64,000 nt of DNA from Cunninghamella blakesleeana (lineage: Eukaryota > Mucoromycota > Mucoromycetes > Mucorales > Cunninghamellaceae): NCBI GenBank assembly GCA_017871115.1, contig JAFCIZ010000005.1, positions 5,449,501 through 5,513,500 on the forward strand, read 5' to 3'. The stretch's first letter is position 1; each line of letters opens with the position of its first letter. Positions 51,651-59,083 of the stretch are shown here, in pieces. Below the pieces are notes generated by a model. It searched no databases. It saw only the letters and a list, made by a program, of their open reading frames with translations, and was not told the origin of the DNA. Position numbers and translations under genes: made by a program.

Positions 51651-52567
51651 TTAAAGTTTTTTAGTCTTGTAAGCATCAACGCCCAAACCTAATTTTTTTT
51701 TTAAAAAAAAGGAGTTTGAATACAATTCATTTGAAATTATATAATTGTAATAAAAAAAAAAGAATCACTTACATTCAGATACGGTAACAAATCTAAGGTT
51801 TTTGCTCTTGATTAATTTTATAAGCTTAGGGGCTAATTCTTGAGAAGTCTTTTTTTGAACCTAATTAATTAATTGGGTAAGTAAACAAATAATTAATAAG
51901 GATATAAATATTCATGTATGAAAATTATAACAATAATAATATTAAAACTTACATCATGAGCTAAAATAATATGACCAGCTTTACGAGGTTTGGATAATTC
52001 CGCTTTAACATAGTTATATTGTTGAGTAACGGATACATCTTCCCAAGTATCTTTGCTATCAATAGACCAATTGACGATAGAATAGCCGTAGCTATTTAAT
52101 AATTTAATGACTCTGTCATTGACACTACCGAAAGGAGGGCGAATAACAGCAGGATATTTCTTAATAGCATCATAAATAGTTTTTTCATTATTTTGAAGTT
52201 CCTTTTTAATAGCAGAGTTACCGAGTTTGGCTAAATCAGGATGTGTATAAGTATGGCTAGCAATTTCGAAACCTGCGTTGTAAGCCTTTTTAATAACGGG
52301 GGCAATTTTCTTTTGGTCACCTTCAACCCACCAGTTATTACCATTAACAAAGAATGTAGCTTTTACATTTTCTTTAACCAATAAGTCAATAAGATTGCTA
52401 GTATATTGGTATGGACCATCATCAAAAGTAAGAGCTACATCATTTTTATTAATACAAGTTTCTAAAACACCAGTGCGAATACCACGCTTTTCTAAGGTGG
52501 TTGGTAAAGCTTGAATAGAAGAAGCTAAACTTAAAGCAGCAGCTAAACAAATGGAAAATTTGACCAT
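51651..52567 (-). CDS. Polysaccharide (chitin) deacetylase, NodB domain
   Basis: Secreted CE4 enzyme, probably converting chitin to chitosan in the wall. Exons (minus) 52567-51953, 51860-51773 and 51688-51651; 246 residues. A signal peptide (1-20) is followed by a short propeptide ending in a dibasic LEKR Kex2-type site at 25-28. Then come the NodB motifs: TFDDGP (D49, D50), the metal pair H105 and H109 in SHTYTH, RPPFG, the DSKDTW block and ILAHD (201-205) at the end of exon 1. The last exons add the VTVSECLGV strand and helix. The protein lacks a chitin-binding domain and a GPI-type tail and is shorter than the roughly 400-residue fungal chitin deacetylases, so it is a minimal form. Confidence 0.92.
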
Positions 52568-53647
52568 ATTAAAGATTAATAAATAAGTAAATGAAATAAA
52601 AAAAGATGAAAAAAAAAATGAAAAGAATGAAAAAAAGGGTCGTTTAAATATTGAATTAAAAAAAAAAAAAAAAGTCGAAATTACGTGAGTTCCAATTTTT
52701 TTTTTTTTTATTTTTCCCTTATGAAACCAAGGTTAAGAATATAATTGCATTTAAAATCATACAAAAATAGCAAGTCTATTTTTGATATTAGATTTTTACC
52801 TTTTTATCTTTTTTTTCATGGTCCACATATATTCCAAACTTAAAATATTTTATACTTCTTTTAAGGATTAGCCTGTATATAGAAATAAAAAAACGTGTTT
52901 TTTTGGTTATTTTGTTTTTTTTTTTCGCTGTTTTTATGCAAACGAGTCAATTTAAAGTTTTTTTTTTTTTTTTCTTTAATCTTTTTCTTTTTATGTTACC
53001 CAAATGTTTATAACCGAAGATTGGATTTTTTTCTTTTTTTTTAAAAATATTAAAAATAAAAATATAGGCTATGTTATCTTTACTATGATCAATATAGTCT
53101 GGTTTTTTACAACATCTGATAAAAAAATTTCACCATGGTTTTAGAACTGAGTTTTTTCTATATATAAATAGGCCATTAAGGGGAAAAAAAAAAGAAAAGT
53201 TGATGATTAAGGGGAGGTTCAAGTGCAAAAAAAAAGCATGGAGCGAAAAACTAAAAACAAAATAATACAAAATAATAATAATAAAAAGAACATAAAGACT
53301 TTTTTGAAGATCTTAATTAGATTTTGTATCACAAAAAAATTACTTGTTACATGGTAATAATGTAATACAAAGGCAGTGTCGATTTTATTAATATGGTAAT
53401 TGGCTATTATACTACCCTTCTTTACTATCTATTTATCTAATAATCTTTTTAAAAATAAGAAGGAAAAAAAAAAAGCATATGTTATTAAAAAAGTTTATTC
53501 TATTAATATATATATATGTTTTATTTATTTTATTTTATTTTATTTTACCTATTATTTCTATTGCCAAGGTTTCACTCTTGTTATATATATATTTTAACAT
53601 TTTTATAAATAGAATGTATAACCCTGGTGATTGGTTAAACGTTTATA
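52568..53647. other. Intergenic region upstream of the deacetylase
   Basis: Deacetylase promoter side and HIBCH-A terminator side. Besides A/T runs it holds two exact ATTAAGGGGA decamers and a TATA-like element, listed separately. Confidence 0.55.
53158..53215. promoter_or_regulatory. TATA-like element with paired STRE-like ATTAAGGGGA motifs
   Basis: CTATATATAAATA at 53158-53170 is followed by ATTAAGGGGA at 53175-53184 and again at 53206-53215, 31 bp apart. AGGGG is the core of the fungal stress-response element. On the minus strand the order (two CCCCT sites, then TATTTATA) would suit a promoter driving the deacetylase through a long leader. On the plus strand only a 39-codon frame follows. 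Confidence 0.4.
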
Positions 53648-56018
53648 TTAATTTGAAAGAGTTCTTTTTTTATATCGATTCCACACGTCTGTTACTTTTT
53701 CTAGAACTCCGAATTTATTTTTCCTTTCTAGTTGATAATGTTCAATAGTTTGTTTTAACGTCCAGGTAGGCTGTTGTTGAATCACCTGTTGAATTTCTTT
53801 TTCGCTTGGTAATGAAAAATGTTGATAAGGATGTTGATGATAATTGATATCGTTTAAAAATTGAATTGGATGTTTTGCTGGTGTATCAAAGTATTCCTTT
53901 TTCAATTGTTGATCATCTATTTCTGATAATGTTCTAGGTTTCCATTCTGGTTGTTTCTTTAGTACAAGATGTGAAATAACCCCTTCTATAAAATCATGTC
54001 CTTCCTATTTTCCCAGATCATTTGGAATGAAATATATATATATATATGTAAAAAAAGTAAGAATAAAGATAAATAAATAAATAATTATGTGCATTGAAAA
54101 TTAAAAAAAAAAAAAAGTAATATGCACTTACAATACATTTTTGCCACAAATAATACTCCATGGCTAAACAATCAGCGATTCCCATATGAGCTCCTAAACG
54201 GAGATGTTGAAGTGTAATTTTAACCGAAGTAGGTGATCTTGTTAGGATAGTGTCTCGTGCTTGTTTAGCAAATAAAGATCCATCTTTTTCTAAAGCATCT
54301 ACGATTTCTTCTGCTGAATTGTATTTAAAGCATCTAATAAATTATAAAATAAATTATATATATATATAAATATATTAGGAAATGTATTTAACAATTTTAC
54401 ATCGTTATGATTAAATATTACCTATCAATAATTTCCCGGTTTTCACCACAAAGTGTATAATGTTGTTGGTTTTTATTTTCATCATCCATATGTTGAGTAG
54501 CAAATTCATTGATAACACTGTTGATTTGTTCGTGATCATCTGTATCTAGTTTAATTAATAAAGATTCAAGTTCATCAAGTTTAGAAGAAGGTACAAAATG
54601 ACTAGCAAGACCAGCATAACTATAAAATAAACAAAATTGATAAATAGATTGAATAAATGTGAATTAAATTTACAGCGTATTTCTTTCATATATATATATA
54701 TATTCAACTTACTATACATCATGGGATTTGATTGTTTGACCCGTCATAGCGAGATAAGTACCCAATTCACCATCTAATCTAGGAAAATAAAAACTAGCGC
54801 CCTGAAAATACATGTATATTAGTCCGTCAATGTCCCTTTATATAGTTTTACATTTTTTTTTGTTTTTTTTTTTTAAAAAAAATAATAATAATAGTAATAG
54901 TAATTTCACTTACAACATCTGGGAATAAACCTATAGCCGATTCTGGCATAGCAAATAGCGTATGCTCTGTAGCAATTCTAAAAGGCGTATTAATTGATAA
55001 CCCAGCCCCAGCACCAACTAATAGAATAGAATAATTTATATATACATTTATATATCAATGTATTTCCCTTTCTTTAATAGAATCATAAATATTATAAGAA
55101 TAGAAATAAATTAACTTAAACTTACTTGTCATCCCATCCATAACAGCAATATATGGCGTTTTCAAAGTTGAGATATAATGAAACATTTTAAATTCATAAT
55201 CCAAGATATCAATCACTACAGGATCCTTATTCTTGAGAAAATCCACAACAGCTACATGTAGTTTTATAATTGAAAGTATATTATATATATAAATAAATGT
55301 ACAGTAACCTATTTTATTTCCCTTTTTAACCTTTATCTATTACCTCTAACATCACCACCAGAGGAGAGAACTCGACGTTTGCCATGATTTGTACCTTTGA
55401 GAAAAATTAATTTGACATCTTCTGATTTTTCCCACGCCTTTCATTAATGAAAAAAAAATAAGTGAAATGTTCATTAATTTAATTATTTGGCATATTTTAA
55501 TATTATTTTGATATTGATACTATTTTATTACATACCTGTATATAAGGAAAAAAGGTCTTAACCATTTGTATATTCATAGCATTTAATTTATTAGGTCGAT
55601 TTAGAATGTATTGTCTTGATCTGCCAATTTCCTTTGTTAAAACTAAATTCTATAATTGGTAATCAAACATTATGTAAGATTTTTTATGTTAGTCTGTTTA
55701 TTTGACATTTTTCTTATATATATTCTTCTCATTATGTCATAGAATTTATACTTACTTCGTTGTCATTTTCTAAGGTTTTTTCTTGTTGTAAAGCAGTTTG
55801 TTGAAATCTTGGCAAAGAGGCAATATTCTATTGTATTAAATATATTGTATATTTTGTGTGAAAAAACATGACAATGGTAAATTGATTGTTTAAGCGACAA
55901 TAAATGGAAATATGAAAATAAAGTATTTACATTAATAAATTACCCTAACTGTAAAAGGTTGAATAGTTTTATACTGATGTTTTAAAACTGGGAAAGAAGA
56001 TCTTAAAGTTCTTAGCAT
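53648..56018 (-). CDS. HIBCH: 3-hydroxyisobutyryl-CoA hydrolase-like protein, copy A
   Basis: Enoyl-CoA hydratase superfamily; the HIBCH group hydrolyses 3-hydroxyisobutyryl-CoA in mitochondrial valine catabolism. Ten exons (minus): 56018-55944, 55827-55756, 55649-55536, 55437-55344, 55251-55126, 55017-54914, 54801-54713, 54619-54422, 54333-54132 and 54004-53648; 476 residues. The N-terminus is basic and Ser/Thr-rich, a likely mitochondrial presequence. Family motifs are [49 protein letters not shown] and, at the C-terminus, [10 protein letters not shown]. This is the downstream member of a tandem pair in the same orientation, and the exon map matches copy B except for one extra intron (54421-54334). 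Confidence 0.9.
54444..54790. repeat. Near-identical tract shared by HIBCH copies (copy A side)
   Basis: This stretch, covering most of exon 8, all of intron 7 and most of exon 7, matches 57171-57527 with only about four substitutions plus a TA-repeat length difference. The rest of the two genes is clearly more diverged. Confidence 0.88.
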
Positions 56019-56503
56019 GGTTTTGGATAATATCCTTTTTTTAAAAAAAAAGAAATTTGAAAAAGAAAATAAAAAATTAGTAGAAGAGAAGTTAAAAAAA
56101 AAAAGATAACCAAATAGTAGATAAAGAAAATTGAAATTCCGGTTGTTTATATTCCAAAAGCGTGTAGAAAAAAATGAAACTGCACAATGCTTTTTATTTT
56201 ATTTTATCCAAAACACTACTATTTAGATAATGGAAAGTTTATATAAATGAAAAATGATAAATAATTTCAATCTTTTTTATGGGGTTGAATGTATCCCAGA
56301 GCGTATGTAAATAATTTCTTCTACAAGGAAAACTATTTTCTGCTTCCATAAATTGTTCGTTACTATATTTTATTTTATTTGTAATAAATACAAAGTCATG
56401 AAGAATAAAAATAATAATTTTTTATCAAGTATAAATTCTAGTCTAATGTGTTATTAAAAATATTATAAGATGAATAATAAATATATAATAATAATAAACA
56501 ATT
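56019..56503. other. Spacer between HIBCH copies
   Basis: Copy A upstream region and copy B 3' end; 485 bp, AT-rich, with no visible similarity to the region upstream of copy B. Confidence 0.55.
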
Positions 56504-58736
56504 CTATATATTTTTATATCTATTCCAAACATCCGATACTTTTTCCTGAATACCAAATTTCATCTTCTGTTGATTATTAAAATGATGGATTATATCTTTT
56601 AATTGAAAATCAGGATGCTGTTGAATAGCAAATCGAATTTCTTTTTCAGATGGTAATGCAAAGTGTTGATGAGGATGCGTAAGATAATTTATGTCATTGA
56701 AAAATTTAATAGAGAATTTGGATGGTGTATCATAAAATTCTTTTACAAAAGTTTTATCATCTAATTCTGGTAATGTCCTGGGTTTCCATTCTGGTTGTTT
56801 TTTTAAGACAAGATGTGAAATTACGCCTTCTGTAAAATCATGTCCTAACTATTATTTTCATTAAAAAGATATATATATATATAAACGTATATATAAATAC
56901 ATCATCTCTTTTTTTTTCTTTTTCTTTTTTTTTAATAAAAAAGCACTTACAAGACATTTTTGCCATAATTGATGCTCCAAAGCTAAACAATCAGCAACAC
57001 CCATATCTCGACCCAATCTTAGATTTTTAAGAATGATTTTAACAGAAGTAGGTGATCTTGTTAGGATAGTGTCGCGAGTTTTCTTGGCAAAAGAAGATCC
57101 ATCTTTTTCTAAAGCATTTACAATTTCTTCTGCAGAATCATATTTAAAGCATCGATCAATAGTTTTACGTATTTCACCACAAAGTGTATAATGTTGTTGG
57201 TTTTTATTTTCATCATCCATATGTTGAGTAGCAAATTCATTGATAACACTATTGATTTTTTCATGATCATCTGTATCTAGTTTAATTAATAAAGATTCAA
57301 GTTCATCAAGTTTAGAAGAAGGTACAAAATGACTAGCAAGACCAGCATAACTATAAAATAAACAAAATTGATAAATAGATTGAATAAATATGAATTAAAT
57401 TTACAGCGTATTTCTTTCATATATATATATATATATATATTCAACTTACTATACATCATGGGATTTGATTGTTTGACCCGTCATAGCGAGATAAGTACCC
57501 AATTCACCATCTAATCTAGGAAAATAAAAGCAAGCGCCCTAAACATACATATATATCATTAGTCAATTAATATTCCTTTTTTATTTCCATTTATGTATTT
57601 ACAATTATCTATATATAAAATCACTTACAACATCTGGGAATAAACCTATAGCTGTTTCTGGCATAGCAAATACAGTATGCTCTGTAGCAATTCTAAAAGG
57701 TGTATTGATGGTTAAACCAGCTCCTGCACCCACTATTTAGTATAGAAATAGTATATATATATATATATAAGTATACATGATATCAATATATATGTTTATT
57801 ATTCGCATTTCTAATTTTTTTTTTTTTACTAACTCGTTATTCCATCAAGAACAGATATATAAGGTGTTTTTAATGTTTGAGCATAATGAAAAACTTTAAA
57901 TTGAAAATCTACCATGTCAAAAAGTCTTGGATCTTTATTTTTAATGTATTCTACTAGTGCTATAAATTTTAAAAATAAATAAAAATAAATATATTAATAT
58001 ATATATATAGACATAATTATATAAACTACCATTGAATAAATAATTATAAGTATCATATCATATATACATTTTTATATATATTACATTTTACATCACCACC
58101 AGCGGAAACAAGTCTACGTTCACCATAATTATTTCCTTTAAGAAAAATTAATTTGACATCCTTTGATTCTTCCCATTCCTAAAGATAAAAAAGACCCCAG
58201 CTGATAAGTATTTTCGTTTTTAACAATAAAAACATGTAATATTTCTATTTTCTTCTTATAACAAAGCCCCTTACTTTTATATGAGAAAAGTATTTTTCAA
58301 ACATTGAATAATTTATAGCATTCATTTTACTTGGTCTATTAAGGTATATATGTCTTGATCCATCTATTTCATTTATTAAAATTAAATCCTAAATAGGAAA
58401 TGAGTGTTATTTATTATTATTATTATTATTTTGACATATTTCATAAAAAAAATCTAATAAAAAAGTATTGGACTCACTTCTTTTTCTTCTGCTAAATAGG
58501 ATTCCTGTCTTAAACTTTTTTCTTGATACCTTGGTAAGGTAGCAAAATTCTATATGTATATGTAAATAAATATATAATTATAATAATAGAAATAAAAATT
58601 ATATGAACTCTAGTTGTTCGCGCAATATAAACAAAATACAAGTATATTTTAATAACAATACCTTGAAAAATATTGGTTTAGCATATTGGAATTGTTGTTT
58701 TAGAGTTGGTAAAGAAGATTTTAAAGATTTCAACAT
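56504..58736 (-). CDS. HIBCH: 3-hydroxyisobutyryl-CoA hydrolase-like protein, copy B
   Basis: Tandem paralogue of copy A. Nine exons (minus): 58736-58662, 58549-58478, 58388-58275, 58178-58085, 57959-57834, 57732-57629, 57538-57450, 57350-56951 and 56848-56504; 472 residues. Exons 1-7 have exactly the same lengths as in copy A. Exon 8 equals copy A exons 8+9 fused without the intron. Motifs: [37 protein letters not shown] and VSDVWNRYK. Two splice donors are non-standard for this window: GTGAGT after exon 2 and GTTAGT after exon 5. The frame is intact, so it is probably functional. Weaker residue conservation at the N-terminus suggests it is diverging. Confidence 0.9.
57171..57527. repeat. 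Near-identical tract shared by HIBCH copies (copy B side)
   Basis: Partner of the tract at 54444-54790, including the same intron 7 sequence and a longer TA repeat (57420-57440). Confidence 0.88.
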
Positions 58737-59083
58737 TGTTTTTCAATAATGATCTCTTGATTAGATTAATAAAAGAGAGCGAAAATGGAGAGAAAAGAAT
58801 AAAAGAGGTTGAGATAATAGAAGTTTGTTTGTTGGTAGCCAATCGGAGATGAAGTAATGAATTAAAATATTTAACCGCCATTATGATTACTAAGAGAATG
58901 TGTGAAAGAATAGATAATAGACATAAATCAATAAAATCTGAATAATAAAAATTACAATAATGTATATCAATATACATTTAAATAGCTAAACAAAAGATTA
59001 TGAATAAGTATTACCTTTTTTTGAAATGCCTTTTTGATCATAATTACATTTTTATTTATTTATTTATTTATTTATTATTATAA
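58737..59083. other. Intergenic region upstream of HIBCH copy B
   Basis: Copy B promoter side and BRAP2-like 3' side. A CCAAT motif on the plus strand (58839-58843, AGCCAATCGG) lies about 100 bp before the copy B start; a TTTA repeat lies near 59052-59075. Confidence 0.5.

Follow-up and report, generated by a model that had tools for sequence, protein, structure and literature searches.

How do two neighboring genes that have long diverged come to share one segment almost letter for letter, an intron included? The question is posed by a tandem gene pair, here called copy A and copy B, on contig JAFCIZ010000005.1 (contig C5) of an assembly filed under Cunninghamella blakesleeana (GCA_017871115.1), whose genome amounts to 31.9 Mb in 12 contigs. 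The term "window" denotes the whole 64,000-nucleotide stretch of this contig that was analyzed. With little doubt, we attribute the shared segment to interlocus (ectopic, non-allelic) gene conversion, by which a stretch of ∼350 bp spanning intron 7 in one tandem paralogue was overwritten with sequence of the other. The island of identity is sharp, it affects silent and intronic sites alike, each gene has kept its own flanks, and the tract is phylogenetically discordant at the protein level.

The near-identical tract and its surroundings

The gene models are predictions that follow splice motifs and the open frame. The two genes are spaced 2.7 kb apart, start to start. The features on which the analysis rests are as follows.

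53648..56018, minus strand: copy A; HIBCH/mS47 family (Pfam ECH_2), 10 exons, 476 amino acids, full open frame, probable donor (gene model and Pfam)
56504..58736, minus strand: copy B; same HIBCH/mS47 family (ECH_2), 9 exons, 472 amino acids, full open frame, probable recipient (gene model and Pfam)
54441..54792, minus strand: probable conversion tract in copy A; 352 bp, comprising most of exon 7, the whole of intron 7, and most of exon 8 (alignment and segment test)
57172..57529, minus strand: probable conversion tract in copy B; 358 bp (alignment and segment test)
54620..54712, minus strand: intron 7 of A; 93 bp, inside the tract
57351..57449, minus strand: intron 7 of B; 99 bp, inside the tract, with 92 of 93 aligned bases as in A
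54688..54703, no strand assigned: (AT)8 in intron 7 of A (read from sequence)
57419..57440, no strand assigned: (AT)11 in intron 7 of B (read from sequence)
54520, 54528, and 54532 in A, equivalent to 57251, 57259, and 57263 in B, minus strand: three clustered tract substitutions, one of which gives the Q/K difference at codon 256
54802..54913, minus strand: intron 6 of A, diverged from intron 6 of B; the tract ends in exon 7, 9 bp short of it
54334..54421, minus strand: intron 8 of A; 88 bp, lying 19 bp outside the tract and without a counterpart in B
57152..57153, minus strand: site in B without intron 8 (alignment); the paralogue on contig C1 has an intron there (read by eye)

The preliminary description of this locus had placed the near-identity at 54444–54790 in A and 57171–57527 in B and had estimated about four substitutions and a change in TA-repeat length. 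Both statements were accurate, the borders almost to the base. Alignment of the tract gives 348 identical bases of 352, with exactly four substitutions (A 54520, 54528, 54532, and 54659) and one 6-bp length change, the AT repeat of intron 7 being three units longer in B than in A. Within the 86 whole codons of the tract there are two synonymous differences and one Q-to-K replacement, and the fourth substitution lies in intron 7; 3 of ∼144 silent sites differ. Three of the four substitutions fall inside 13 bp (chance 0.012). Directly beyond the tract, A and B differ at closely spaced positions on either side.

The coding sequences of the whole genes are 78% identical. By exon of A, from exon 1 to exon 10, identity is 63, 64, 67, 80, 67, 89, 98, 95.5, 81, and 73%, so that the greater divergence noted earlier for the other exons holds (63–89% outside exons 7 and 8). 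Uniform synonymous divergence along both genes, named in advance as one of two outcomes that would speak against an exchange, was not seen. The proportion of synonymous sites that differ (pS) is 0.05 in exon 7 and 0.12 in exon 8, as compared with 0.31–0.78 in all other exons (0.51, 0.56, 0.51, 0.41, 0.78, and 0.31 in exons 1–6; 0.45 and 0.53 in exons 9 and 10).

The introns follow the same pattern. Intron 7 of A matches that of B with a z-score of 19 against shuffled sequences, whereas the seven other introns shared by the two copies reach z-scores of 2.3 to 5.9 with many gaps. The neighboring introns, which had been described as having no visible similarity, are thus weakly alike and not wholly unlike; the highest of these seven scores belong to introns 6 and 9, where some similarity persists.

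We examined the island with a maximal-segment permutation test on the coding sequence, using two penalties, each with base-wise and codon-block shuffling (10,000 shuffles per set). In none of the four sets did any shuffle yield an island as good as the observed one (0/10,000 each). At the protein level, A and B differ at 1 of 86 positions in the tract and at 101 of 313 in the flanks (p = 1.5e-11). Under the milder penalty, the best segment reaches exon 6 as well (340 bases with 9 mismatches), and exons 6 and 9 contain identical runs of 24–32 bases. This similarity perhaps reflects an older, partly worn exchange, or else protein constraint. Exon 6 (A 54914–55017, B 57629–57732) is 89% identical between the copies, contains identical runs of 26 and 32 bases, and has the lowest pS beyond the tract (0.31).

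Intron 8 is precisely missing from B at a site adjoining the tract, as in an exact intron loss. In the C1 paralogue, introns interrupt the gene at both the intron 7 and the intron 8 position, the latter in the same position and phase as in A (read by eye), and intron 8 appears from these sequences to be ancestral.

Phylogenetic discordance and the mode of exchange

The closest named relatives of A and B are proteins of Cunninghamella echinulata and C. blakesleeana. Four were used: P0001 (A type) and P0003 (B type), labeled C. echinulata, and P0002 (A type) and P0004 (B type), labeled C. blakesleeana. We refer to A, B, P0001, and P0003 together as the C. echinulata-type rows. P0001 lacks the N terminus, and the flanks therefore cover at most 317 columns. 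Protein trees and approximately unbiased (AU) tests included the six Cunninghamella-type rows and four outgroups.

In the tract tree, the four C. echinulata-type rows group together (support 97/98), and clades of A orthologues and B orthologues are rejected (AU 0.0016 and 0.00923, respectively). With the flanks joined, both orthologue clades are recovered (96/97 and 100/99). The four-row grouping is rejected there (AU 1.3e-5), as it is by the upstream flank (AU 5.5e-5) and the downstream flank (AU 0.0057) separately. Within-species clustering confined to the tract, which the preliminary description had expected of a conversion, is thus seen in the protein trees, whereas the flanks group orthologues. 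Likewise, sites that oppose A and P0001 to B and P0003 number 40 upstream and 45 downstream, as compared with none in the tract. The protein-level tract borders of P0003 are those of B. The C. blakesleeana pair P0002/P0004, which the data suggest are located together, has no significant island at the tract position (23/86 versus 108/315, p = 0.2).

An error in which assembly or polishing copied sequence between the paralogues could create a similar island. We consider this very improbable, because P0001 and P0003, which seem to belong to two other assemblies, likewise diverge little in the tract from the other copy (5/86 versus 97/313), with the same borders; moreover, at 78% coding identity a mix-up outside the tract is unlikely.

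Purifying constraint, which the preliminary description had tied to an intron 7 equally conserved in other species, offers another reading, in which exons 7 and 8 and intron 7 carry a conserved function, such as a structured RNA or a regulatory element, and no exchange took place. The nearly unchanged intron 7 would fit such a function. However, the tract protein evolves no more slowly than its flanks: A differs from the A-type C. blakesleeana protein at 22/86 tract and 62/315 flank positions, and B from the B-type protein at 30/86 and 91/313. At the matching position, the C1 paralogue has an intron that bears only a weak resemblance to intron 7 of A and of B (z = 2.4 and 2.8), and the interval 53600–58800 had no Rfam match at E-values up to 1. 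Nor would constraint set the tract tree apart from the flank tree, and we give it hardly any credence.

The preliminary description had left the choice between conversion and unequal crossover. Conversion stands. A single unequal crossover, for which the tandem arrangement provides the necessary setting, would leave one hybrid junction or an altered copy number and no island, whereas both genes retain their own sequence on either side of the tract. The A and B clades of the flanks each include a C. blakesleeana protein, indicating that the pair is older than the tract, which speaks against crossover and partial gene duplication alike. A genome search with 54424–54819 gave at least two matches, A and B, and both tract copies are accounted for. 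Neither crossover nor duplication is a credible origin of the pattern. Because each gene has its own sequence on both sides and the genome search showed two tract copies, the repair would have occurred without crossover.

Under the favored explanation, gene conversion, B would have broken within its AT-rich intron 7 or close to it and been repaired from A, and the AT repeat may have been the break site. Pairing could have taken place in exons 7 and 8, which can be aligned, while the intron between them was copied along, and the tract would have ended inside these exons, just short of two heterologies, namely the diverged intron 6 and the intron 8 missing from B. Exchange mediated by cDNA does not fit, because the tract includes intron 7.

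Some observations sit less comfortably with this explanation. Intron 7 had presumably diverged before the event as well, and heterology alone does not explain where the tract ends. Relatives were compared as proteins, and the comparison of intron 7 and silent sites applies to the window alone. Furthermore, the clade of A orthologues is unstarred when the flanks are analyzed separately (94/94 upstream, 71/98 downstream), and the best tree of the downstream flank lacks the clade of B orthologues, which is nevertheless not rejected there (AU 0.45).

Direction and timing of the exchange

Site patterns point to A as the likely donor and B as the recipient. Along the gene, A differs uniformly from P0001 (6/86 in the tract, 16/317 in the flanks; p = 0.44), whereas B shows an island of similarity to P0001 (5/86 versus 99/313; p = 1.6e-7). 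We also counted sites that agree with only one of the two C. blakesleeana copies, given here as A-like to B-like. For B, the ratio is 28:47 in the flanks but 14:5 in the tract (p = 0.0085), and P0003 shows a similar shift, from 27:46 to 12:5 (p = 0.015). The affinity of A is unchanged (61:18 in the flanks, 13:5 in the tract; p = 0.76).

P0003, the B-type copy in a different C. echinulata assembly, shares the exchange, which thus probably predates that split. P0001 and P0003 apparently stem from two different assemblies, of which that of P0001 is the more distant from the window, and this is what allows a single A-to-B event to fit. As judged from these proteins, one such event in an ancestor common to the window and the strain of P0003, after the lineage of P0001 had split off, is probable and fits nearly all data. 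An initial reading, in which a B-to-A transfer was combined with an older homogenization, was dropped once P0001 and P0003 appeared to be from different assemblies.

Beside the gene pair lies a polysaccharide deacetylase gene (window ∼51953–52567, minus strand, first exon only), which is 94% and 83% identical to its two closest C. echinulata relatives. The relative that appears to share the assembly of P0001 differs from the window gene at 34/206 positions, and the one that appears to share that of P0003 at 13/206. Because of these unequal identities, the two C. echinulata assemblies seem to represent rather different strains or species.

Several results pull the other way. The maximum-likelihood (ML) tract tree weakly places the C. 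blakesleeana B protein, not the A protein, beside the C. echinulata rows (64/64, unsupported), and the alternative with the A protein joined to these rows is not rejected (p-AU 0.137). Because this tree leaves the donor undecided, the argument for direction comes from the site counts and from P0001. A tract topology that keeps A with P0001 is not rejected either (p-AU 0.095), which makes an exchange before that split possible. In addition, codon 256 encodes Q in A and P0003 and K in B, P0001, and P0002, and at one further position of the tract A, B, and P0002 share T where P0001 and P0003 share I. Any one of three causes would suffice for these two misfits: homoplasy, allelic variation at B, or a second exchange of small extent.

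Within gene conversion, these results lend some weight to transfer from B to A, or to an exchange before the P0001 lineage split, maybe followed by a second one in the lineage of the window. In favor of this view are the two misfit sites, the undecided donor in the ML tract tree, and the unrejected pairing of A with P0001. Moreover, 4 of 86 tract sites, as compared with 3 flank sites, unite A with B and P0003 against its orthologue P0001. A single late B-to-A transfer, however, would make P0001 differ from the tract as much as B differs from it in the flanks (99/313), whereas P0001 differs at 5 or 6 of 86 positions. An early single event predicts that A and B diverge at least as much as A and P0001, but the observed differences are 1 and 6 of 86 (Fisher p = 0.12). 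Among A, B, and P0001, it is P0001 that stands apart at five sites, B at none (one-sided p = 0.03), and A at one. Taken together, B-to-A or early exchange is the less plausible course, although not a negligible one.

We also entertain, as somewhat unlikely, that exon 7–intron 7–exon 8 is a recurrent exchange site with at least two conversions of nearly the same borders in this lineage. Here the AT repeat of intron 7 might seed the exchange, and the diverged intron 6 and the presence or absence of intron 8 might stop it. The Q/K cluster and the shared T could then be small patches left behind that do not fit one event.

Gene family, comparable systems, and the wider contig

Pfam family PF16113 (ECH_2) covers most of both proteins (A: E = 3e-106, residues 62–393; B: E = 2.6e-102, residues 61–392). 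At least two further members of the family are present in the genome.

C1:7634500-7637500 (L011): HIBCH/mS47-family gene, here the C1 paralogue
C6:3674500-3677500 (L012): HIBCH/mS47-family gene, here the C6 paralogue

Among solved structures, A, B, and the C6 paralogue have their two best relatives in chains 6yw5_88 and 3bpt_A, each of which bears the name 3-hydroxyisobutyryl-CoA hydrolase; 6yw5 is a Neurospora mitoribosome and 3bpt is human. Chains named mS47 match as well. The tandem arrangement and the family proposed at the outset are thus borne out, whereas the specific identity as HIBCH enzyme is not separable from mS47: for A and B, "HIBCH" is a family-level name, and structural relatives of these sequences do not distinguish the hydrolase from the mitoribosomal protein. 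A and B read MPE..FPDVG, the C1 paralogue reads MPE..FNAG, and the C6 paralogue reads MPE..LPEVG. An acidic residue that is catalytic in HIBCH is thus changed in the latter two.

Interlocus gene conversion is a textbook process, and the A/B tract is a new example of it, clear but ordinary. No case of gene conversion in Cunninghamella or in fungal HIBCH genes was found in the open-access literature searched, nor one between tandem paralogues of Mucoromycota; the papers that matched for Cunninghamella were incidental, as judged by title. The locus provides a clean, well-bounded case from an early-diverging fungus, in which long-diverged tandem genes exchanged a segment with a whole intron. Gene trees or dates derived from exons 7 and 8 of A and B would mislead, and the pair offers a concrete locus for settling donor, recipient, and tract ends across strains.

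In the red and green opsin genes, according to a review (PMC3924837), interlocus conversion is frequent and prevalent in introns, and exon 5 forms an island of divergence. Like the opsin genes, A and B are neighboring paralogues with a homogenized intron, whose converted part clusters within species and whose other parts group orthologues. Unlike the opsins as described there, A and B have one island of identity inside otherwise diverged genes. The GOT1 paralogues of Tigriopus californicus, compared across populations (PMC3728101), likewise form a mosaic of high and low divergence from conversion between paralogues. In that account, however, exchange in one GOT1 pair is largely restricted to exons, with a large un-alignable intron, and the other pair is intronless, whereas the A/B tract crosses an intron. 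Yeast whole-genome-duplication duplicates under concerted evolution, as reviewed in PMC3924837, are also fungal paralogues homogenized in coding sequence long after duplication. Almost all of these cases are reported to be coding-restricted (PMC3924837, citing a personal communication), whereas the A/B tract includes non-coding sequence.

A repeat scan of the whole window found six families of at least 100 bp, every one from the A/B pair. We further surveyed 264 kb of contig C5 for islands (20 stretches of 10 kb plus the window), a survey that yields no base rate: its ≥95% filter did not flag the A/B tract, which BLAST merged into a longer 74% match, and such islands would be missed. Four repeat clusters were found, of which one is the A/B pair, one consists of short 67–81% repeats, and two derive from one 724-bp repeat and its partial copies. 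The two full copies of this repeat (C5:5306488-5307211 and C5:5313984-5314707) are 99.9% identical, with partial copies of 84–90% identity nearby.

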